From: Corallococcus macrosporus
GTDB taxonomy: Bacteria > Myxococcota > Myxococcia > Myxococcales > Myxococcaceae
Length of the DNA: 64,000 nucleotides
Direction: 5' to 3'
NCBI RefSeq assembly: GCF_017302985.1
Contig: NZ_JAFIMU010000007.1
Span: 3,053,001-3,117,000, forward strand
In this document: positions 2,751 through 11,823 of the stretch, one piece after another
Layout of the letters: each line of letters begins with the position of its first letter
Numbering within the stretch: position 1 is the stretch's first letter
Translations under genes and position numbers: made by a program
Notes under the pieces: generated by a model
Databases searched by the model: none
The model's input: the letters and a program-made list of their open reading frames with translations, nothing else
Told to the model about the DNA's origin: nothing

Positions 2751-3637
2751 TACGGCGCGGCGACGGTGCAGACGCCGCCGCCGTTGAGGTGCGCCTGATC
2801 CACGATGCTCTGGGTGACGAACTCCTGGAGCGTGCGCAGGGCGTAGGCGCCGGGCTGGTAGACGACCGGGTGGCCCTGGGCGTCGCGCAGCTCGCCGCCG
2901 TCCAGGCCGCGCAGGTCGAGCAGCTGCTGGGTGGCCAGCCCCTCCGGCGTGATGGCGTGGCTTGCGTCCGCGGTGGCGGCGATGGCCTCGAAGCGCAGCT
3001 GCACGCCGCGGTGGGTGCCCAGCCGGTCGTAGAACATGTGCTCGGCGTGGATGGTGACCTCGGCCTCCGCCACGGAGTTCTCCGGCACGACGAGGCCCTG
3101 GGTTCCGTCCACGCCGTTGATGCAGTCCACCATCCGCGCGTTGACGGGGAAGCCCATGCGGAAGGTGTAGAGGCCCAGGGCGGGGTCCCGGTTCTGCGCG
3201 CGGCCCTCCACGAAGTAGCTGAAGCCGCGCTCGCGCATCATCGCCAGGTCGTCGGCGGACACGGACGCGCCGGCCACGGTGCGCGCCTCCGGCGGGCTCA
3301 CCCGGAAGGCCACCCCGTAGCGCCCCGCCTCCAGGCCCGTGAGGCCGGTGAGGGGCACGTCCCCCTTCTGCACGTCCACCAGCAGGTGCTCCGTCGTGGC
3401 GTGCACGTCGCCGGCCGCGGAGGTGAGGGTGAAGTCGCCCAGGGACACCAGGTACTTCGTGAACTGCACGGACCAGCCGTCCTGGAAGAGGTGATCCGCG
3501 TAGCCGCGCTGCGTCCCGTCCCCGCCGCTCAACGTCACCCGCACGTCGCCGCGCGCCGTGGCGTCGCCGCAGCCGGAGGCCCCCAGGCCCAGCGCGCCCA
3601 CGAGCAGGCCCCACGTCCACTTGCTTCGTCGGTTCAT
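2750..3637 (-). CDS. Lipoprotein paired with TonB-dependent receptor
   Basis: The product is 295 aa with a type II signal peptide and lipobox ending at C23 (GASGC), so it should be lipid-anchored. The family is not recognised with certainty. The segment G-W-S-V-Q-F-T-K-Y-L-V-S-L-G aligns with G-W-R-V-A-L-T-T-A-R-L-V-L-G in the lipoprotein at 6202-7014, so the two flank the receptor and are probably homologous. Parts (the LLVDV...AGRYGV pattern) remind me of MbnP-type copper-associated lipoproteins, but this is only a resemblance. An I-H-A-E-H segment could bind metal. It is divergent from the receptor gene, and the shared 111-base intergenic region holds a palindromic operator candidate at 3654-3668, only 17 bases from its start codon. 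Confidence 0.6.
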   Translation of the reverse strand: MNRRSKWTWGLLVGALGLGASGCGDATARGDVRVTLSGGDGTQRGYADHLFQDGWSVQFTKYLVSLGDFTLTSAAGDVHATTEHLLVDVQKGDVPLTGLTGLEAGRYGVAFRVSPPEARTVAGASVSADDLAMMRERGFSYFVEGRAQNRDPALGLYTFRMGFPVNARMVDCINGVDGTQGLVVPENSVAEAEVTIHAEHMFYDRLGTHRGVQLRFEAIAATADASHAITPEGLATQQLLDLRGLDGGELRDAQGHPVVYQPGAYALRTLQEFVTQSIVDQAHLNGGGVCTVAAP

Positions 3638-3653
3638 GCATCTGGTTGGTATT

Positions 3654-3668
3654 TGTAACTATGTTGCA
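3654..3668. promoter_or_regulatory. 15-bp palindromic operator candidate, copy A
   Basis: TGTAAC-TAT-GTTGCA is a 6-3-6 (or 7-1-7) inverted repeat between the divergent lipoprotein (2750-3637) and receptor (3749-6205) genes. The same pattern recurs at 9597, 10312 and 11809. A weaker related sequence, TGCATC-TGG-TTGGTA, starts 17 bases to the left at 3637. The 15-bp 7-1-7 geometry is that of Fur-family operators; the identity of the regulator is an inference. Confidence 0.6.
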
Positions 3669-3748
3669 AGTCAAGTCTGGGTTGCGATATCCACGGGTCG
3701 CCGCTGAGAGGTCCGCCTGCGTCAGGTGGACCCCGCCGGCCGAGGTCG

Positions 3749-6205
3749 TTGCCCGTGTTCATCCCGACGCTGGTGCTCTGGCTGTTGAGCGCGTCGCCCG
3801 AAGTGCCCGTGACGCCGCCCGTGCCCGTGGAGGCGCCGCCGCCCGTGATGCCGGCGGACGCGCCGCCGTTGACGGAGGCCGTGCGGGTGCTGCTGCGGCT
3901 GACCATCGATGCCCAGGGAGAGGTCTCCCAGGTGGAGGTGATGGTGCCCGGGGGCGAGGCCTTCAACCGGGCCGCGATGGCGGCGGCCCTGAGGTGGCGC
4001 TTCGAACCCGCGCGCCGGGGCGAGGAGCCGCTGGAGGTGCGCGTGGACGTGCCGGTGACGTTCGAGCCGGTGGCCGCTCCGCCTGCTCCGGAGCCGGTGC
4101 CACCTCCGAAGCCGGAGCCGCCGGTGTTCTCCACCACGGTGCGCGGGCAGTCCGTCGCGCCGCCTCCCGTGGCCGTGGGGGACTTCCACATCACGGTGGG
4201 GCAGCTCGCGGACGTGCCTCGCAACTCGGCGACGGACCTGATGCTGCTGGCTCCGGGCGTGATGCTCGCCAACCACGGCGGGGAAGGGCACGCGGAGACC
4301 GTCTACCTGCGCGGCTTCGACGCGGGAGAGGGCAAGGACGTGGAGATGCGCCTGGACGGGGTGCCCCTCAACGAGGTTTCCAATGCCCACGGCCACGGCT
4401 ACGCGGACACGTACTTCATCATCCCGGAGCTGGTGCGGTCCCTGCGCGTGACGGAGGGACCCTACGACCCATCCCAGGGCGACTTCGGCGTCGCGGGCAC
4501 CGTGGAGTACCAGTTGGGGCTGGAGCAGCGGGGCATCACCGCGTCCGCCAGCTACGGCAGCTTCGCGTCGCGCCGGCTGTCCCTGGTGTGGGGCCCGCCC
4601 GAGTCCACCGCCGCCACCTTCGTGGGCGTGCTGCTGCGCCAGGGGCACGGCTTCGGCCCCAACCGCTCCTATGCGAACGCGGGCCTCATGGCCCAGACGG
4701 AGCTGAACCTGGGGCCACAGACGAAGCTGCGCGTGTTCGGCGCCAGCTACGCCGCGCGCTACGGCTCCGCGGGCGTGGTGCGGGAGACGGACGTCGTGGA
4801 CGCGCGGCTGCCATGCGACGCGGACGCGGACTCGCAGTTCTTCTGTCTCTACGACCCGAACCAGGGCGGCGCGAGCCAGCGCCACATCGCCTCCGTGGAG
4901 CTGACGTCCCGCCTGGAGCGCGGAGGCCGCTTCGTGCAGCAGGCCTTCGCCATCGCCCGGCAGATGCGCAGCCGTGAGAACTTCACCGGCTTCCTCCAGG
5001 ACACGCCCCCCATCGGCGAATCCCAGCGCGGCGACAACACGGAGCAGTCCTACCAGGGCACCACGGTGGGCCTGCGAGGCCGCTACACGCCGGGCCTCAC
5101 CTGGGCGGGGCAGCCCCAGCCGCTGGAGCTGGGCTACGTGGCCCGCTACGACAACGTGCACACCCGCGCGCGGCGCCTGCGCGACAACGGCGGCGCGCCC
5201 TACGCCACCGTCTTCGACAACCAGGTGCGCGTGACGAACCTGGGCGCGTATCTGTCCCTGCGCGGCGCGCCGCTGGAATGGCTCACGCTGCGGGGCGGCG
5301 TGCGCGTGGACACGTTCCTCTTCGGCGTGGAGGACCTGAACCGGCCCGCCGAGGATCGGCAGGGGACCCGCATCCCAGAGGAGTCCGTGGAGGCCTATGG
5401 CTTCTTCGCCAGTCCCCGCGCCAGCGCGGAGGTGCGCCTGACGCCGCGCCTCACGTGGCTGACCAGCGCGGGCCTGGGAGCGCGCTCCAGCGACGCGGCG
5501 GGCCTGTCCAACGCGGAGTTCGCGCCGTACGCGCGCGTGACGTCCGGAGAGACGGGCCTGGGCTGGCGGTGGGCGGACGGCCCGTCCTCGCTGGAGCTGC
5601 GCGGCGCCCTGTTCGCCACGCGCGTGTCGCAGGACCTGGTGTTCAGCGAGACGACGGGACGCAACCAGCCCATCGGCCCGTCGCAGCGGCTGGGCGCGTT
5701 CGGCAGCGCGCGCTTCCAGTGGGAGCAGCACCTGGACGTGCAGGCGAGCCTCGCGTGGGCCCGCGCGACGCAGCCGTTGCCCGGGGCCTCCGCGTGGCAA
5801 CTGTGGGACGGCACGGTGCTGCCGTACATCCCGCAGGTGCTGGGCCGCGTGGACGCGTCGTGGCGGGGCACCGCCACCGTGGCCCATCAGCCGGTGGGGT
5901 GGAGCGTGGCGCTGGGGCACAGCGCCATCGGGCCCAAGCCCCTGCCGTTGGATCGCTACAGCGAGTCCATCTTCCTCTTCGACGTGGCGGCCCGGGCGCG
6001 CTGGCGCGCCGTGGAGCTGGGCCTGTCGGTGGAGAACCTGCTGGACGCGCGCTGGCGCGAGTCCGAGTTCAACTACGTCTCCAACTTCCGCGGCCCCGAC
6101 GCGCCCGCGTCCCTGCTGGCCACGCGCCACTTCTCCGCCGGTGCGCCTCGCACCGTGCGCGGCACCCTCACCGTGTACCTGGACCTCCAGGAGGACCGGC
6201 CATGA
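3749..6205 (+). CDS. TonB-dependent outer-membrane receptor with N-terminal TonB-like domain
   Basis: The product is 818 aa. The start is TTG 3749 (GTG 3755 is the alternative), preceded by a weak GAGG and followed by a hydrophobic signal segment (FIPTLVLWLLS). Residues of about 40-107 match the TonB C-terminal fold (LLRLTIDAQGEVSQVEV ... AALRWRFEPARR), then comes a Pro-rich linker, a plug of about 125-260, and a beta-barrel to the end. The plug carries LDGVPLNEV and the conserved F-I-I-P-E. Residues around the plug apex (NHGGEGH, NAHGHGYAD) are His-rich. Such receptors import scarce ligands such as chelated metals using proton motive force. The stop overlaps the next start (ATGA at 6202-6205), so the following Tat lipoprotein is translationally coupled. 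The ligand is unknown; metal is inferred from His content and context. Confidence 0.85.
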   Translation: MPVFIPTLVLWLLSASPEVPVTPPVPVEAPPPVMPADAPPLTEAVRVLLRLTIDAQGEVSQVEVMVPGGEAFNRAAMAAALRWRFEPARRGEEPLEVRVDVPVTFEPVAAPPAPEPVPPPKPEPPVFSTTVRGQSVAPPPVAVGDFHITVGQLADVPRNSATDLMLLAPGVMLANHGGEGHAETVYLRGFDAGEGKDVEMRLDGVPLNEVSNAHGHGYADTYFIIPELVRSLRVTEGPYDPSQGDFGVAGTVEYQLGLEQRGITASASYGSFASRRLSLVWGPPESTAATFVGVLLRQGHGFGPNRSYANAGLMAQTELNLGPQTKLRVFGASYAARYGSAGVVRETDVVDARLPCDADADSQFFCLYDPNQGGASQRHIASVELTSRLERGGRFVQQAFAIARQMRSRENFTGFLQDTPPIGESQRGDNTEQSYQGTTVGLRGRYTPGLTWAGQPQPLELGYVARYDNVHTRARRLRDNGGAPYATVFDNQVRVTNLGAYLSLRGAPLEWLTLRGGVRVDTFLFGVEDLNRPAEDRQGTRIPEESVEAYGFFASPRASAEVRLTPRLTWLTSAGLGARSSDAAGLSNAEFAPYARVTSGETGLGWRWADGPSSLELRGALFATRVSQDLVFSETTGRNQPIGPSQRLGAFGSARFQWEQHLDVQASLAWARATQPLPGASAWQLWDGTVLPYIPQVLGRVDASWRGTATVAHQPVGWSVALGHSAIGPKPLPLDRYSESIFLFDVAARARWRAVELGLSVENLLDARWRESEFNYVSNFRGPDAPASLLATRHFSAGAPRTVRGTLTVYLDLQEDRP

Positions 6206-7014
6206 TGCGTCCCACCCGTCGAGCCTTCACGTGGATGCTGGGAGGCGCGCTCGCGGCGGGCTGCGGCCTGTCCGGCACCGGAGGCCGCAGCATCACCTTC
6301 CGCATGGGCCTGCGCACGGGGTTCGCGCCCGGTGAGTCCACCGCGGGCACCTTCACCACCGACACCGGCTGGCGCGTGGCGCTCACCACCGCGCGCCTGG
6401 TGCTGGGGCCCATCTACCTCTTCGAGAAGGCCTCGCCCCTCCAGCCCCAGGCCCTGCTGCGCCGCCTGGGGGACGCGCTGCTGCCCACCGCGCACGCGCA
6501 CGAAGGGGACTTCTTCTCCGGAGGCCGCGTGCTGGGCGAGTGGGACCGCGAGGTCGTCTTCGACTTGCTCGCGGACGCGGGACAGGCGCGCGTGCTGGGG
6601 CGCTCGCCGGGCATCGCGGGCGTGGCGCGGTCGCTGTCGCTGCTGCTCCAGCCCCCTTCGAGCGCGCTGGGCGCGGAGGCGGACGTGATGGAGGGGCGCT
6701 CGCTCTTCCTGGAGGGCGTCGCGGCCCAGGGAGAGGCGCGCGTGCCCTTCCGCGTCGCGATGGACTTCCCGCCTCCCGTGGAGCTTCAGCGCGTGGACTT
6801 CGTGCCCATCGACGTGGACCTGGACGACGAGGGGCTCTTCGTCCTGGAGCCACAGCCGCACCGCTGGTTCACCGGCGCGCGGTTCGACCGGCTGACCCTG
6901 ACTCCGAACGGCGCGCCCGTGGACGTGGGCGCGGACACGCAGGTCCACCGGGCGCTGAGCGTCAACGTGCGCCGCTTCGACGCGTTCACGGGCGCGTGGG
7001 AGCCCGCGGCGTGA
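6202..7014 (+). CDS. Tat-type lipoprotein coupled to the TonB receptor
   Basis: The product is 270 aa. Start ATG 6202 overlaps the receptor stop (ATGA), so the pair is translated together; a second ATG follows at 6205. The leader has a twin-arginine pattern (T-R-R-A-F-T-W-M-L) and a lipobox ending at C21 (LAAGC), suggesting export of a folded protein and lipid anchoring. The segment G-W-R-V-A-L-T-T-A-R-L-V-L-G resembles one in the lipoprotein at 2750-3637. A H-A-H-E-G-D motif near residue 95 is a plausible metal ligand set. No known enzyme domain was recognised. Tat export would fit a protein that acquires a cofactor or metal before crossing the membrane, but that is inference. Confidence 0.6.
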   Translation: MMRPTRRAFTWMLGGALAAGCGLSGTGGRSITFRMGLRTGFAPGESTAGTFTTDTGWRVALTTARLVLGPIYLFEKASPLQPQALLRRLGDALLPTAHAHEGDFFSGGRVLGEWDREVVFDLLADAGQARVLGRSPGIAGVARSLSLLLQPPSSALGAEADVMEGRSLFLEGVAAQGEARVPFRVAMDFPPPVELQRVDFVPIDVDLDDEGLFVLEPQPHRWFTGARFDRLTLTPNGAPVDVGADTQVHRALSVNVRRFDAFTGAWEPAA

Positions 7015-7023
7015 CGGGGGGCT

Positions 7024-7560
7024 TCACTCCTGCGTCCAGAACGGCGACAACTGGAGGTCCACGCGCTCGAAGGGCTCGACGCGCACCTGCTCCTCGCCGA
7101 CGAGGGTGTTCACCAGCATCCAGCGCTCGTGGTCCTGGCGGAACACCTCCACCACGCGGTGCACGGGGTTGATGACCCAGGCGTTGCGGATGCCCGCGCG
7201 GGCGTAGCGCGGCAGCTTCGCGGCCAGGTCCAGCCTCGCGCTAGCGGGGCTCAGCACCTCGCAGATCCAATCCGGCACGCGGTCGATGAACGCGCCGTCG
7301 GGCAGCGTGGGCGGCCGTCCCCCCAGCCAGCCCGCGAGGTCCGGCACGAGCACGTCCTGGCCCAGCAGCAGCCGGGGCTCGGAGGTCCACCACCAGCCCT
7401 CGGGCGCGCGGCCCAGCAGCGGCGTCAGGCCCTGCTTGCGCGCGATGGGAGGCGAGGAGACGTAGAGGACGCCATCGAGCGCCTCGCCCACCAGGTAGTG
7501 GGGCAATGTCTGCACTTCCTCGTAGGGGGCGAGCATCTTGCGGGCGGCGGCGTGGCGCAT
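7024..7560 (-). CDS. Uma2-family putative nuclease (DUF820)
   Basis: The product is 178 aa. It matches the Uma2/DUF820 fold, a PD-(D/E)XK-like family: an N-terminal E-A-L-D-G-V-L segment, Q-D-V-L-V-P-D-L in the middle, P-D-W-I-C-E-V-L-S-P, then K-x-x-x-Y-A-R-A-G-I and a W-V-I-N-P strand. The D and E-V-x-x-P-x positions correspond to the presumed catalytic acid residues. I chose ATG 7560, since GGAGG lies 8 bases upstream; the longer frame back to 7644 has no ribosome-binding site. Uma2 genes are abundant in cyanobacteria and myxobacteria and their role is unclear. It is convergent with the receptor operon and probably not functionally tied to it. Confidence 0.75.
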   Translation of the reverse strand: MRHAAARKMLAPYEEVQTLPHYLVGEALDGVLYVSSPPIARKQGLTPLLGRAPEGWWWTSEPRLLLGQDVLVPDLAGWLGGRPPTLPDGAFIDRVPDWICEVLSPASARLDLAAKLPRYARAGIRNAWVINPVHRVVEVFRQDHERWMLVNTLVGEEQVRVEPFERVDLQLSPFWTQE

Positions 7561-7691
7561 GCGGTGGGCCTCCAGGTCCGAGCGAGAGACCGTCACCGTA
7601 GCGGGCAGCCTCCCGCGCGGCATTGGACCGCCAGGGCGGCCCACCTTGTCCTGGTGGACGCACGCCCTTCCCGCGAGTCGTGTGGGGCTTG

Positions 7692-8654
7692 CTATTCGCG
7701 CTCCAGCACGAACTGGATGTGCTCCGAGGCCACGGGACCGAACTGGAACAGGTGGATCTGATCCCCCGGCTCCGACGTGAACTTCAGCGTGTGCGTGATG
7801 CCGGCGCAGATGAAGCGCGCGGGCGCGAGCACCGACGCGACGTCCGTCCCCGCCGTGTCGTTGGTGACCTTCGTGGGCACGTTCTGGTTCAGGTAGAGCG
7901 TGACGTGCTCGGCGCTCTCCGGGTCGGAGATGAAGCCCGTGTAGCCGCCGAAGCCCGCCTCACCGGAGCGCAGCGTGACGTCGTAGCGCGCGTGGCCGGT
8001 GTGCGTGTCGGGCGGGAAGTCGAAGGGCGTGCGGCCCGCGGTGACGGCCTCCGGCGTGTTGACGAGCGTGTGCGTGCACGCGTGCTCCAGCGCCGGGTCG
8101 CGCTCGCCGGTGGTGAAGTCCAGCGAGGTGTCCGCCAGCGCGAGTCCGGCCGCGTCCCTCAGGGACTCCAGCGACAGGGCGTAGTGCGTGGAGACCTCCA
8201 GCGGACGGGTGCTCTCCTCCGTGCGCGGCACGGTGACGGTGAGCGTGCGCGCGTCCCCGGACCAGGCGCCGGTGAGGACGCGAGCAGGGACGGTGGTGTC
8301 CGTGCGGTCGTGCAGCGTGACCTGGGCCGCGGTGGGGTCCATGGGCTCGCTGAACGTGAGCGTCAGCACCTTGCGGAAGGCGATGACCGGCGTCTGGCCG
8401 GAAGCGTCCAGGTACATCTCCAGCGGGTAGACGTCTGCCTCGTCCTCGGCGGGCTGGGAGGCGGTGACGGTGGCGGTAGACGTGGACGTGCCCGCGTCCG
8501 TACCCGCATCGCTGCCAGCATCCGTACCTGCGTCGGTGCCCGCGTCCGTCGAGGTGCCGGCGTCCGGCGTGACGATGGGGTCGTCGTCATCGCAGCCGGT
8601 CAGCGCGAGGGCGGCACAGGTGGCGAACAGGAAGGTGGCGGAGGAGAGACGCAT
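7692..8654 (-). CDS. Lipoprotein with H-x-C-x-H domain and Ig-like domain
   Basis: The product is 320 aa, starting at ATG 8654; a lipobox ends at C21 (ALTGC). Then follow an acidic D-D-D-D stretch, a D-A-G-T repeat stalk (residues 31-55), a bacterial Ig-like domain (LTFSEPMDPTAAQVTL, Big_5-like), and a C-terminal domain of about 130 aa that begins with H191-A-C-T-H195 and continues with V-T-A and G-H-A-R-Y-D-V-T-L. The last domain is shared with the three lipoproteins at 8768, 9636 and 10394. The Cys/His cluster suggests metal or haem binding at the cell surface or in the periplasm; no direct evidence of the ligand is visible. A strong hairpin pair (8693-8752) separates it from the gene upstream. 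Confidence 0.6.
   Translation of the reverse strand: MRLSSATFLFATCAALALTGCDDDDPIVTPDAGTSTDAGTDAGTDAGSDAGTDAGTSTSTATVTASQPAEDEADVYPLEMYLDASGQTPVIAFRKVLTLTFSEPMDPTAAQVTLHDRTDTTVPARVLTGAWSGDARTLTVTVPRTEESTRPLEVSTHYALSLESLRDAAGLALADTSLDFTTGERDPALEHACTHTLVNTPEAVTAGRTPFDFPPDTHTGHARYDVTLRSGEAGFGGYTGFISDPESAEHVTLYLNQNVPTKVTNDTAGTDVASVLAPARFICAGITHTLKFTSEPGDQIHLFQFGPVASEHIQFVLERE
8490..8564 (-). repeat. D-A-G-T coding repeat (stalk)
   Basis: Short near-identical units coding for D-A-G-[T/S] (residues 31-55 of the lipoprotein) form a low-complexity spacer after the lipobox, a common feature of myxobacterial surface lipoproteins. It is protein-coding and not a CRISPR. Confidence 0.8.
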
Positions 8655-8692
8655 CGGGGGGAGTCCTTCGTGCAAGCAGGGAGAAAGGCCCA

Positions 8693-8728
8693 CGCCGGAG
8701 CACCGTTCCGAGATGAGGTGCTCCGGCG
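8693..8728. terminator. Strong intergenic hairpin
   Basis: A perfect 12-bp stem (CGCCGGAGCACC at 8693-8704 with its complement at 8717-8728) and a 12-base loop lie between two minus-strand lipoprotein genes. It could end the upstream transcript, or limit or stabilise readthrough into the gene at 8654. There is no U tract. Confidence 0.55.
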
Positions 8729-8733
8729 CGGGA

Positions 8734-8752
8734 GCGGACCGCTCAGGTCCGC
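8734..8752. terminator. Second hairpin in tandem
   Basis: A 7-bp stem, GCGGACC (8734-8740) with GGTCCGC (8746-8752), and a 5-base loop lies just 5 bases from the larger hairpin and 15 bases from the stop codon of the gene at 8768. It is the first hairpin met by transcription from that gene. Confidence 0.5.
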
Positions 8753-8767
8753 GTCAGGGGACCGCGA

Positions 8768-9508
8768 TCAGCACTGCGAACCGTCGCAGTTGTCATCGAT
8801 GCCGTTGCCACAGATCTCCGTGGCGCCCGGGTTGATGCTCACCGCAGCGTCGTTGCAGTCGAAGCGCTGCGTGATGTAGCCGGCGGGCGGCGTGCACGCG
8901 GTGTAGACGGACACGGAGCTGTTGCCGTAACCGTCGCTGTCCGCGTCCTGGTAGTAGCGCGTGCGCGTGTCGTTGAGGAACTCCGGCACCACGGTGACGG
9001 TGTTGCCGGACGCGGGGCCCGCCGCGACGATGTACGTCGTGCCCGCCGTCAGGTCGTACACGGACACGTACACGAGCGTGCAGCCGGAAGCCGACACGGT
9101 GTGAGACAGCGCGGCCGGCACCGTCGCGCTGGTGCTGCCATTCACGACGGTGAAGGCCACGTTCTTCGTCCGGTAGAACGCGTAGGAGCCGGTCGTGGCC
9201 GGCACGTACGTCACGGAACCCTCGGCGCTGGACGGCAGCGTCAGGTCGTAGGCCTTGTGCTTCGTGCTGATGGAGGGCGCGCTGGTGACGCGCGTGGCGC
9301 TCGCCGTGATGGCCACGTGGTCCGTGGGGCTGCCCGCGTGCGTGCACGCGTGCGAGGTGATGCCCGAGCCCAGCGACGTGCAGCCGGCCTCCAGTTCCTG
9401 CGAGTCCTGCGCCTCGAAGGAGGCCTCCGGCGCCTCCTCCATCGGTCCGCAGGCCGTCAGGCCGAGCGACAACAACGCGCCCAGCGCGATGCGCTTCATC
9501 TTCAACAT
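8768..9508 (-). CDS. Lipoprotein with H-x-C-x-H domain and MopE-like metal-binding tail
   Basis: The product is 246 aa. ATG 9508 has AAAGGAAA upstream; the lipobox ends at C20 (GLTAC). Residues 53-57 read H-A-C-T-H, followed by V-A-I-T-A and K-H-K-A-Y-D-L-T-L, which defines the domain shared with the neighbours. The C-terminal 65 residues are a calcium/copper-type repeat: D-A-D-S-D-G-Y-G, then D-C-N-D ... N-P-G-A-T-E-I-C-G-N-G-I-D-D-N-C-D-G. That pattern is the MopE-like metal-binding motif, named for the copper protein MopE of Methylococcus but also widespread in myxobacterial surface proteins with no copper link. A palindromic operator candidate lies 89 bases upstream (9597-9611). Confidence 0.7.
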   Translation of the reverse strand: MLKMKRIALGALLSLGLTACGPMEEAPEASFEAQDSQELEAGCTSLGSGITSHACTHAGSPTDHVAITASATRVTSAPSISTKHKAYDLTLPSSAEGSVTYVPATTGSYAFYRTKNVAFTVVNGSTSATVPAALSHTVSASGCTLVYVSVYDLTAGTTYIVAAGPASGNTVTVVPEFLNDTRTRYYQDADSDGYGNSSVSVYTACTPPAGYITQRFDCNDAAVSINPGATEICGNGIDDNCDGSQC

Positions 9509-9596
9509 GGGTGTTTCCTTTCGGGATGCCGGACGCGGCGGGGTGCCAGGCGGCCAGAAGCCACCGGTGCGTCCGGTGACTCACTCATGCCGTAAA

Positions 9597-9611
9597 CGCA
9601 ACTTGGTTGCA
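9597..9611. promoter_or_regulatory. 15-bp palindromic operator candidate, copy B
   Basis: CGCAAC-TTG-GTTGCA lies upstream of the minus-strand lipoprotein gene 8768-9508. The inner arms GCAAC/GTTGC are a perfect inverted repeat. It matches the copies at 3654, 10312 and 11809. Confidence 0.6.
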
Positions 9612-9635
9612 ATAATGGTCAGGCGATTCAGGCCG

Positions 9636-10277
9636 TCACTGGAGGTGCTCGATGACGAGCCCCAGCTCCGTGCGCGCGGTGGGGCCGAAGGTGACGGTGT
9701 ACTGGACCTTGTCCGTCAGCTCGTAGCCGACCATGTGCTTCAGGCCTTCACAGAAGGCGCCGGTGGCCTGGGTGGCCACGGGCGCCACGACGCGCTCGCC
9801 CTCCTTCACGGTGACGGCGACGTCGGGCGTGCTCAGGTAGAGGACGAAGTCCCCGGAGGCCCAGGCCTTGAAGCTGAACGTCCCCACGGACTGGCCGTTC
9901 TCCGGGCGCAGCTTGACGGTGTAGTGCGTGTGGAAGTCGTCCACGCGCGGCTGCCGCTCCGGAGAGGCGGTGACGGTGGCGAAGGGGCCGTTGGTGACGT
10001 GGAAGCAGGCGTGCTCGCCGTTGTCGCCGAAGTCGAAGCCCTCGCGCGGCACGTAGTCCGGGTCGGTCACGCACGACAGGCTCTGCTCGCTGGCCAGGTA
10101 GCCCCGGTCGCAGTGGCACCAGTCGCCGTCAGGCTCGCGGTGGATGTGGCCATGGGGGGCGCATGGGTCGCCCTGCTCCTGGGGCGTGCCGTCCGGGGCG
10201 GGCGGATCGTCGCCACCACAAGCGGTCAGGGCCGCGAGGCCTCCGGCCAGGAGAAGTGCTGGAAACGGGATGCGCAT
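9636..10277 (-). CDS. Lipoprotein with Cys-rich EGF-like segment and H-x-C-x-H domain
   Basis: The product is 213 aa with a lipobox ending at C20 (ALTAC). Residues of about 36-70 contain C-A-P-H-G-H-I-H and W-C-H-C-D-R-G-Y, an EGF-like disulphide-rich module with extra histidines. H89-A-C-F-H93 follows, then V-T-A-S and F-H-T-H-Y-T-V-K-L, the same domain order as in the three neighbouring lipoproteins. This is the most His/Cys-rich member and the strongest candidate for a metal-binding protein of the group. The palindrome at 10312-10326 lies 35 bases before the start codon, a position that would allow repression of a promoter there. No enzymatic function can be assigned. Confidence 0.62.
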   Translation of the reverse strand: MRIPFPALLLAGGLAALTACGGDDPPAPDGTPQEQGDPCAPHGHIHREPDGDWCHCDRGYLASEQSLSCVTDPDYVPREGFDFGDNGEHACFHVTNGPFATVTASPERQPRVDDFHTHYTVKLRPENGQSVGTFSFKAWASGDFVLYLSTPDVAVTVKEGERVVAPVATQATGAFCEGLKHMVGYELTDKVQYTVTFGPTARTELGLVIEHLQ

Positions 10278-10311
10278 GGGAGGGCTGCCTCATCGGAATC
10301 CGTGATGTAGA

Positions 10312-10326
10312 TGCAACTGAGATACA
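10312..10326. promoter_or_regulatory. 15-bp palindromic operator candidate, copy C
   Basis: TGCAAC-TGA-GATACA lies 35 bases upstream of the minus-strand gene 9636-10277. Read on the other strand it closely resembles copy A (TGTA-C-T---GTTGCA). Confidence 0.55.
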
Positions 10327-10349
10327 GAAGTTTTCGGATGTTGGGAAGG

Positions 10350-10376
10350 CCCGTGGACCTTGGAGGTGTCCACGGG
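10350..10376. terminator. Hairpin downstream of the lipoprotein gene at 10394
   Basis: CCCGTGGAC (10350-10358) pairs with GTCCACGGG (10368-10376): a 9-bp perfect stem and 9-base loop, just after the stop of the minus-strand gene 10394-10990 and before the operator and promoter region of the next gene. Confidence 0.6.
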
Positions 10377-10393
10377 TCTTCACTCACGCGGGG

Positions 10394-10990
10394 TTACTCC
10401 TCGGCGTGGTCGTGCCCCGTCTCCTCGACGATGAGGAGGAAGGTGGAGGGCTGGGGGACGATGGCCGCGAAGTCCACGCGGTAGTCGACGCCACCCTCCA
10501 GGTCGGCGGTGACGGCGGTGCGCAGGCTGCCGCAGACCTCCTGCGGGATGTTGTAGCGGCACTCCAGGCCGACCTCCTCGTTCGTGGCCGCGTTGACGAC
10601 GCGGACCGCGCGGTAGCCGGAGGTGAGGAAGGCGTACTCGGTGGACTCTTCCGGGGTGAAGATGACGGAGCCCGCGTAGCCGAGCGTCCACTGCTGGTAG
10701 GTGATGGCCGGCAGGGTGACGTTGTACGCGGTGTGCCCCACGCTCACGTCCACGAAGGACGGGCCGCCGAAGGGCGCGGCGGTGACGGACTCGAAGGGTC
10801 CGTATTCGGCGTGGGTGCAGGAGTGCTCGGCGACCTCCGCCAGCTCCTCCGTGTCCTGGCAGGCGGCGAGCAGCTCCGACTGCTGGGTGACGGGGGCCGG
10901 TGACTCCTGGGCGGGGGCCTCTTCGGTGCCGCAGCCGGCGAGCAGGAAGACGGCGCCAGCGGCGATCAGGGCATGGGGATGCTTCGACAT
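10394..10990 (-). CDS. Lipoprotein with H-x-C-x-H domain and His-rich tail
   Basis: The product is 198 aa with a lipobox ending at C20 (LLAGC). H56-S-C-T-H60 is followed by F-E-S-V-T-A-A and G-H-T-A-Y-N-V-T-L, as in the other three family members. The protein ends in G-H-D-H-A-E-E, a further possible metal ligand. Two extra cysteines (ECRYN, EVCGS) may form a disulphide. It is 43 bases downstream of the gene 11034-11720 with no terminator between, so the two are probably co-transcribed from the promoter region holding copy D of the palindrome. Function unknown beyond likely envelope location. Confidence 0.6.
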   Translation of the reverse strand: MSKHPHALIAAGAVFLLAGCGTEEAPAQESPAPVTQQSELLAACQDTEELAEVAEHSCTHAEYGPFESVTAAPFGGPSFVDVSVGHTAYNVTLPAITYQQWTLGYAGSVIFTPEESTEYAFLTSGYRAVRVVNAATNEEVGLECRYNIPQEVCGSLRTAVTADLEGGVDYRVDFAAIVPQPSTFLLIVEETGHDHAEE

Positions 10991-11033
10991 GGTGGGGACT
11001 CCTTGGGTGGGTGCTGCGGGTGAGAAGGGGGGG

Positions 11034-11720
11034 CTAGGAGCGGTCCGGGCGCAGGACGAGCCACGGGACGCGCACCTCGCCCGAGGGGAGGTGCTCGGGC
11101 GGGAGCTGGAGGTGGGCGCTGTGTGCGCTCGGAGTCAGGAGGGAGGCGCGCTCCCAGGCGTCGCGGAAGGACGGCTCGTCCGGGAAGGTGACGCGCGTCA
11201 CGCAGCCGGCGGCGTAGCAGTGGGGCGGCTCCGCCTGGACGGGCCGCACGTCCTGGTCGATGCGCGCGTGCCATGCATCCAGCGCGGCGCGTGCGTCGTG
11301 CGTCCACGGCTCCGAGCTGTCACCGGACGCGGTGAGCTCCGCGAGCACCGCGTCGCGGCGGGCCAGCGGGGTGGGGTGGTCCGCGCGCAAGGCCCGCACC
11401 AGCCGCACGCGCGTGTCGGGCAGCTCACGCCGCGCGCGGTTCCGGAGCTCCGGCTGCACGGGCCCCTTCACCTTCAGCGCCGCGTCGAGGAACGCCTCTG
11501 GTGAGGGGGTCGCCAGCGGTTCGGGGATGGCGGGCGCGGGCGCGGGCGTGTGGATGGGCGCGGCTTCGACCGTCGGTGACGGGGCCGGTGCCACCTGGGA
11601 CACGGTGGGCGGGGGCGCTGGCGGCTCGGCGGGGAGGTCCAGGGGCCGGTGGAGCCAGGCCACCGCGAGACACGACAACACGACCCCCGTGCCTCCGACA
11701 CTCCAGACGATGCGGTTCAT
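11034..11720 (-). CDS. Membrane-anchored hypothetical protein
   Basis: The product is 228 aa. An N-terminal hydrophobic segment (residues about 8-24) is followed by a Pro/Ala-rich spacer (PAPAPAIPEP) and a helical domain of about 150 residues facing the periplasm. One Cys pair occurs in H-C-Y-A-A-G-C-V-T-R-V-T-F, so a disulphide or a metal site is possible. I do not recognise a family. It is the first gene of a probable two-gene unit with the H-x-C-x-H lipoprotein at 10394, and the operator candidate at 11809-11823 lies 88 bases before its start. The context suggests it belongs to the same regulon. Confidence 0.5.
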   Translation of the reverse strand: MNRIVWSVGGTGVVLSCLAVAWLHRPLDLPAEPPAPPPTVSQVAPAPSPTVEAAPIHTPAPAPAIPEPLATPSPEAFLDAALKVKGPVQPELRNRARRELPDTRVRLVRALRADHPTPLARRDAVLAELTASGDSSEPWTHDARAALDAWHARIDQDVRPVQAEPPHCYAAGCVTRVTFPDEPSFRDAWERASLLTPSAHSAHLQLPPEHLPSGEVRVPWLVLRPDRS

Positions 11721-11808
11721 GGGTTCCCCTCAGGACGCACCTGTGGCGGTGCGCGCGCCAGCCCGGCTTCCCGCGAGCGGCCCGCAATAGATGCCACTGA
11801 GAGTCACA

Positions 11809-11823
11809 TGCAATCAAGTTGCA
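11809..11823. promoter_or_regulatory. 15-bp palindromic operator candidate, copy D
   Basis: TGCAAT-CAA-GTTGCA lies inside the longer perfect repeat ATGCAA-N5-TTGCAT (11808-11824). It is between the divergent genes 11034-11720 and 11956-13671. A weaker copy, TGCCAC-TGA-GAGTCA, starts 17 bases to the left at 11792, the same pitch as the weak/strong pair at 3637/3654. Confidence 0.62.

Follow-up and report, generated by a model that had tools for sequence, protein, structure and literature searches.

A predicted Zur regulon of TonB-dependent receptor and lipoprotein genes in Corallococcus macrosporus

The palindromic boxes that precede a TonB-dependent receptor gene and a set of lipoprotein genes in Corallococcus macrosporus are very probably operators of Zur, a zinc-sensing repressor of the Fur family that would be encoded by the gene at C7:2914313-2914762. 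When zinc is sufficient, zinc-loaded Zur dimers would bind TGCAAY-N3-RTTGCA and block the promoters; we infer the binding, the repression and the role of zinc as corepressor. When zinc is short, Zur would leave, and the receptor would be made together with two associated lipoproteins, as would a family of lipoproteins sharing an H-x-C-x-H...H motif, leading to the capture of what is presumably zinc at the outer membrane. In two of the promoters, a weaker box 17 bp away may take a second dimer at higher zinc. The sites, their conservation, the occurrence of the box at hallmark Zur targets in relatives and the regulator gene with its boxes can all be read directly from the DNA.

The palindromic boxes and the genes that they precede

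The stretch of DNA analysed (hereafter the window) is 64,000 nucleotides long. The preliminary description had placed four palindromes in it, at 3654, 9597, 10312 and 11809, and all four are present at these positions (Table 1). The TGYAAY-type pattern assigned to them holds for 3654, 10312 and 11809 but not for 9597, whose first base is C. The sites at 3654, 9597 and 10312 each precede a lipoprotein or receptor gene as described, whereas the site at 11809 precedes a gene for a membrane-anchored Pro-rich protein, with a lipoprotein gene following in the same direction.

Table 1. Predicted operators and genes of the receptor and lipoprotein cluster (window positions; distances run from the box to the start codon)
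Feature	Positions	Strand	Remarks
Lipoprotein A, 295 aa	2750..3637	-	Matches no family in Pfam or NCBIfam; present in 36 of 38 related loci
Weaker second box, TGCATCTGGTTGGTA	3637..3651		17 bp from the main 3654 box; overlaps the lipoprotein A start codon
Zur operator (predicted), TGTAACTATGTTGCA, TGTAAC-TAT-GTTGCA	3654..3668		Common to the divergent lipoprotein A and TonB-receptor genes; ~17 bp from the minus-strand start codon
TonB-dependent receptor	3749..6205	+	TonB C-terminal domain at the N end, plug, barrel; start may be GTG 3755
Lipoprotein B, 270 aa	6202..7014	+	
Lipoprotein C, 333 aa	7692..8693	-	H204-x-C206-x-H208 and H234; without a box of its own
Lipoprotein D, 246 aa	8768..9508	-	H53-x-C55-x-H57 and H84; C-terminal MopE-type motif
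Zur operator (predicted), CGCAACTTGGTTGCA, CGCAAC-TTG-GTTGCA	9597..9611		~89 bp upstream of lipoprotein D
Lipoprotein E, 213 aa	9636..10277	-	H89-x-C91-x-H93 and H116; beta-sandwich predicted, resembling the PPC/CBD domains of collagenases
Weaker Zur operator (predicted), TGCAACTGAGATACA, TGCAAC-TGA-GATACA	10312..10326		~35 bp upstream of lipoprotein E
Lipoprotein F, 198 aa	10394..10990	-	H56-x-C58-x-H60 and H86; predicted fold as lipoprotein E
Membrane-anchored Pro-rich protein, 228 aa	11034..11720	-	N-terminal half weakly similar to TonB (22 bits, well under the cut-off)
Weaker second box, TGCCACTGAGAGTCA	11792..11806		17 bp from the main 11809 box
Zur operator (predicted), TGCAATCAAGTTGCA, TGCAAT-CAA-GTTGCA	11809..11823		~89 bp upstream of the membrane-protein/lipoprotein F pair

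Three sites in the window (3654, 9597 and 11809) match TGCAACNNNGTTGCA with at most one mismatch, against 0.14 expected, and none of 100 shuffles reached this number. With up to two mismatches, five sites were found versus 2.22 expected (12 of the 100 shuffles reached five), and at this level neither the 10312 box, which has two mismatches, nor a match within coding sequence at 8843 is significant alone in the window shuffles. The 10312 box is nevertheless supported, because similar sites precede the same gene in relatives. At three mismatches, the 13 sites in the window fall below the 23 expected. Genome-wide, TGCAAYNNNRTTGCA occurs with at most one mismatch at 14 places in 9.81 Mb (17 contigs) versus 4 for the reversed control, and three of the 14 lie inside 8.2 kb of the window (Poisson P ~2.6e-7).

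Sixty 19-mers, picked by hand from the 94 distinct ones of relatives, were combined into a sequence-only profile; the four window sites and the site of the genome's own regulator gene were left out, and the orthologues of the window sites were kept in. In a whole-genome matrix scan, of the kind that the preliminary description had proposed, this profile was run against the 9.8-Mb genome with 150 of 329 candidates scored, and with the window sites held out it still returned only window places at E<=10, namely 9597, 11809 and 3654. Their E-values were 0.57-2.75, so the single matches are not significant, and the weight of the scan rests on all three places falling together. The weak box of the regulator gene described below was absent from these matches. 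A family-wide run, for which stricter filters were applied than in the own-genome run, gave a match at E<=1 in only 26 of 59 genomes, and several matches in other genomes lay beside genes without an evident zinc role (L189, L200, L203, L204, L205 and L213) and were not counted. Many of the motif matches in the C. macrosporus genome are inside genes; the perfect one at C2:655183, for example, falls within what we read as a large peptide synthetase gene. Other sites lie upstream of genes for secreted proteins, namely a trypsin-like protease (C12:236179), a PAD_porph deiminase (C4:72831) and a subtilase (C12:78677). These three sites (L087 3180, L089 3032 and L090 3078) were left out of the regulon, and the genes behind them are possible further Zur targets.

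The receptor carries its TonB C-terminal domain at residues 35-106, ahead of the plug. The receptor and lipoprotein B genes, which overlap by 4 bp, probably form one operon, and lipoprotein C is probably cotranscribed with lipoprotein D. A gene for a Uma2-type putative endonuclease (7024-7644), which has no box, lies between the receptor operon and the lipoprotein genes. On the minus strand, the 3654 box is flanked by a conserved TTGACT (3674-3669), which adjoins it, and by TACCAA, 17 bp from TTGACT; judging from the conserved columns, these may be the -35/-10 pair for lipoprotein A. With only ~9 bp between this pair and the start codon of lipoprotein A, the transcript is possibly leaderless.

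BLASTP comparison (E 6e-10 to 0.05) shows that lipoproteins C, D, E and F are paralogous to one another, each with a further His 23-27 residues after H-x-C-x-H. The presence of four paralogous lipoproteins sharing H-x-C-x-H...H is a new finding. In C, D and F, conservation of these four residues is >=95%; in lipoprotein E they are invariant in 21 close sequences, and H89 and H116 do not reach 95% in a broader set of 34. The predicted models of F (mean pLDDT 81) and E (mean pLDDT 84) resemble the collagen-binding/PPC beta-sandwich of collagenases (Z 10.6, rmsd 2.6 over 109 residues for F; Z 10.0, rmsd 2.9 over 105 residues for E), and a Foldseek search with lipoprotein F gave no match at E<=0.001. 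In these models H-x-C-x-H sits in a helix before the sandwich, and the H-x-C-x-H...H site probably holds zinc.

Conservation of the boxes and the weaker copy 17 bp away

We compared 23 named loci with a related receptor, from Corallococcus, Myxococcus, Pyxidicoccus, Hyalangium, metagenome-assembled genomes (MAGs) and one contig filed as Comamonas. Of these, 22 have a match at 11-12 of 12 positions within the 200 bp that precede the receptor match. In the 23rd (L037), where the receptor is 50% identical, a box of 10 of 12 is found ~40 bp ahead of an orthologue of lipoprotein E, whose gene comes before that of the receptor. Boxes of 11 and 10 of 12, respectively, also head the run of genes leading to the receptor in the distant clusters L142 and L137, and in L131 and L139 the boxes before D and E stand 88-89 bp and 33 bp upstream; these findings, and that for L128 below, come from 8 of 16 stretches of relatives. 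Genus g21 has a receptor that is 38-42% identical. One of its members, G020, has a perfect box immediately upstream of the receptor gene, and two lipoprotein-type genes come after the receptor.

Of the 12 arm positions, 9 reach ~2.0 bits over the 23 promoters, compared with 0.2-0.7 bits for the three central bases (L025 and L026 being represented by their second site, which is nearer the receptor). Conserved arms around a variable spacer are as expected for the operator of a dimer, and the 15-bp inverted repeat agrees with the 7-1-7 geometry typical of the Fur family that had been proposed for these boxes.

Some of these loci have additional features. In L024, L025, L026 and L031, a second site of the form TGCARC-N3-GATGCR stands ~50 bp away from the main box, at about -63 relative to the receptor match, and a further match is found ~3.95 kb upstream of the receptor in L028, L029 and L035. 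L031 (BNCN01000005.1) is titled Comamonas sp. KCTC 72670; it contains a myxobacterial receptor (78% identical) and lipoprotein genes, and the organism name looks wrong.

The weaker copies described 17 bp to the left of the 3654 and 11809 boxes are real, since -17 is the top offset in both promoters when offsets of -60 to -12 and 15 to 60 are scored. In the receptor promoter, the mean at this offset is 7.22 of 12 (23 loci) compared with 3.01 (sd 0.94) at other offsets; in the 11809 promoter, for which 14 of the 23 loci passed the filter, it is 7.36 of 12 compared with 2.98 (sd 0.81). The 11809 promoter provides the cleaner evidence, because in the receptor promoter the -17 copy shares bases with both the start codon of lipoprotein A and the putative -10 element. 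The spacing test also peaked at ±11, which follows from the motif itself because TGCA is palindromic; this peak was discarded. The -17 box is likely a second dimer site of lower affinity, and its presence in two promoters is new here. Two weak sites 17 bp apart also occur in some promoters of the regulator gene.

The candidate regulator gene and the metal

A search of the genome revealed two Fur-family genes, one on contig C7 and the other at C1:4617. The candidate regulator is the former (G000:C7:2914313-2914762, minus strand, 150 aa), which is on the same contig as the receptor gene, 142 kb from it, and matches PF01475 at C7:2914400-2914699 (47 bits, cut-off 23.1). A weak box, TGCACTCCGGTTGCA (10 of 12), lies ~45 bp before its likely start codon. 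Among the 30 regulator orthologues read, six have a box of 11-12 of 12, namely L115 (12 of 12) and L117, L118, L119, L121 and L122 (11 of 12 each); L115 and L117 belong to genus g8, the other four to genus g16. Many others have 8-10, and in L113 and L120 no box of 8 or more was found within 400 bp of the orthologue. Zur regulons commonly, though not always, have an operator at the gene of the regulator itself. Counting matches to the second Fur gene as well, 57 of the 59 family genomes searched have a match to the regulator at E<=0.001. In G029, G045 and G052, a regulator gene lies 6.8-8.5 kb from the receptor, and it is the orthologue of the C7 gene and not of the C1 gene. Autoregulation in G025 was rejected because the box there is behind the regulator gene, before a gene pair leading to a COG0523 GTPase. 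The assignment of the boxes to a metal regulon of the Fur family, as first proposed, is thus supported by the C7 gene with its weak box, by strong boxes in two genera and by proximity to the receptor in three genomes.

The regulator remains far below every curated Zur, Fur and PerR cut-off in NCBIfam, reaching no equivalog model, and scores higher on the Fur and PerR models than on Zur. Its score on the Zur model PRK11639 is 21 bits against a cut-off of 167; this model appears to be for another lineage, and a score below its cut-off therefore does not exclude Zur.

The metal is indicated by the genes that carry the box in relatives. In G052 (L128), genes for ribosomal proteins S14, L28 and S18 lie between the lipoprotein cluster and the regulator, with two boxes of 12 of 12. 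A second L28 gene was found in 10 of 59 genomes. When 30 of 67 L28 matches were taken as loci (L150, L159 and L171 not parsed), a box of 10 or more was present <=1.3 kb upstream of L28 in six of the nine parsed two-copy loci versus none of the 18 parsed single-copy loci. Longer stretches of four two-copy genomes revealed a 10/12 box 32 bp before L28 in G037, a 10/12 box before a COG0523 gene upstream of L28 in G042 and G023, and no box in G056. In all, nine of the 10 two-copy genomes have a box, the last three being without an equal control because single-copy loci were read to 1.3 kb only. The ribosomal paralogues in relatives appear to be zinc-independent, judging from the Cys pairs missing in the parts read; the parsed L28 proteins have one Cys in both the two-copy and the single-copy group. 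COG0523 proteins are hallmark Zur targets, and profile matches precede genes for COG0523/CobW GTPases, or a gene leading into them, in G038, G046, G052, G047 and G003; Pfam confirmed the COG0523/CobW family for three other members. Zinc-sparing ribosomal proteins are likewise listed among the hallmark targets of Zur in PMC3087516.

These ribosomal and COG0523 targets were found in relatives and not in the C. macrosporus genome, which has a single L28 gene and, by our reading, no clear COG0523 gene among its three CobW-family matches; its Zur regulon thus looks small. For the one ZnuA-like gene of this genome, the 3.8 kb read contain no box scoring 10/12 or higher. An operator at znuABC is common in Zur regulons but not universal. 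Since regulons lacking znuABC are possible and the ZnuA-like gene may be for a different metal, we limit the claim to a regulon that works as a Zur regulon.

Other readings of the boxes were weighed against this evidence. The best matches of the C7 regulator among solved structures and NCBIfam models are Fur proteins, a second Fur-family gene exists, and TonB receptors are often iron-regulated, as would fit a Fur-family regulon for another metal, either iron through the C1 gene or manganese or nickel. Such a regulon is highly improbable, because the same box is found at the S14/L28/S18 paralogues and at COG0523 GTPases and because the identical box of Desulfovibrio belongs to znuABC-zur, as stated in PMC545781; in the case of iron, the regulator close to the cluster in three genomes is, moreover, the orthologue of the C7 gene. 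The preliminary description had suggested perhaps zinc or copper, and only zinc is upheld by the targets in relatives and the Desulfovibrio consensus. A copper regulon, with the His/Cys-rich lipoproteins and a MopE-type 'Cu-binding' motif under a copper-sensing regulator, would account for the PF11617 match in lipoprotein D; this match is, however, one short stretch in one lipoprotein, and the recurrence of the box at zinc-sparing genes makes copper even less probable than the preceding alternative.

The geometry of the box taken alone would also be compatible with an unrelated palindrome-binding family, e.g. MarR-like proteins, and the survey of regulator genes, for this reading as for copper, covered the Fur family. 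In genera g8 and g16, however, the box precedes the Fur-family gene, as a weak copy does here; a Fur-family gene is near the cluster in three genomes, and the Desulfovibrio Zur box, as presented in PMC545781, provides a precedent. We give this reading the same very low probability as copper. Control by Zur is preferred because the box precedes the S14/L28/S18 and COG0523 genes in relatives and equals the Zur box of Desulfovibrio.

Relation to known systems

The predicted ZUR_D box of Desulfovibrio, as given in Genome Biol 2004 R90 (PMC545781), has the consensus ATGCAACNNNGTTGCAT, ATGCAAC-N3-GTTGCAT, and two sites, upstream of znuABC-zur. The Myxococcaceae system resembles the one presented there in its identical consensus, in a Fur-family regulator gene tied to the box and in predicted zinc uptake. 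Unlike that system, the myxobacterial box stands at a TonB receptor and lipoproteins. The comparison of the two regulators is by box. In a text search of openly licensed PMC papers, the consensus string was found in PMC545781 alone. The extension of the Desulfovibrio-type Zur box to the Myxococcaceae, which rests on sequence comparison, is new here.

The paralogues of S14, L28 and S18 under the box, here in relatives, are a feature shared with the Zur regulons of Bacillus, Mycobacterium and Streptomyces as they appear in PMC3087516; in contrast to the zinc-independent ribosomal regulons treated there, the genome from which the window is taken has one L28 gene only. In that paper, M. xanthus is listed with zinc-independent S4 and, beside S4, S14, L33 and L28; the profiles are those of Actinobacteria, Bacillus and Gammaproteobacteria, sites are reported in two Salinispora genomes, and none are reported near ribosomal paralogues in the remaining genomes, Myxococcus xanthus among them. 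The myxobacterial box differs from the profiles given there, which may explain why Zur sites at ribosomal paralogues were missed.

The receptor aligns at residues 27-280 to the start of the myxochelin receptor MxcH (NCBIfam NF038079, 80 bits), but remains far below the cut-off of 925 bits for that family. ZnuD-type zinc receptors are TonB-dependent receptors under Zur control. The receptor described here is similarly a TonB-dependent receptor under predicted Zur control, and differs from the ZnuD type by its N-terminal TonB_C domain and the accompanying lipoprotein family. A wider interpretation, to which we give slightly less than even weight, is that these genes form a myxobacterial zinc-scavenging apparatus of the outer membrane, which would consist of a Zur-controlled receptor with its own TonB domain and H-x-C-x-H...H lipoproteins on a sandwich like the collagenase CBD, under a graded tandem operator with a strong and a weak box at 17 bp.

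With the assignment to Zur, the Myxococcaceae would gain a zinc regulon with a usable operator matrix, and the little-used Desulfovibrio box would be tied to a second lineage. It would also provide a probable role, zinc capture, for a conserved set of receptor and lipoproteins, several members of which match no curated family.
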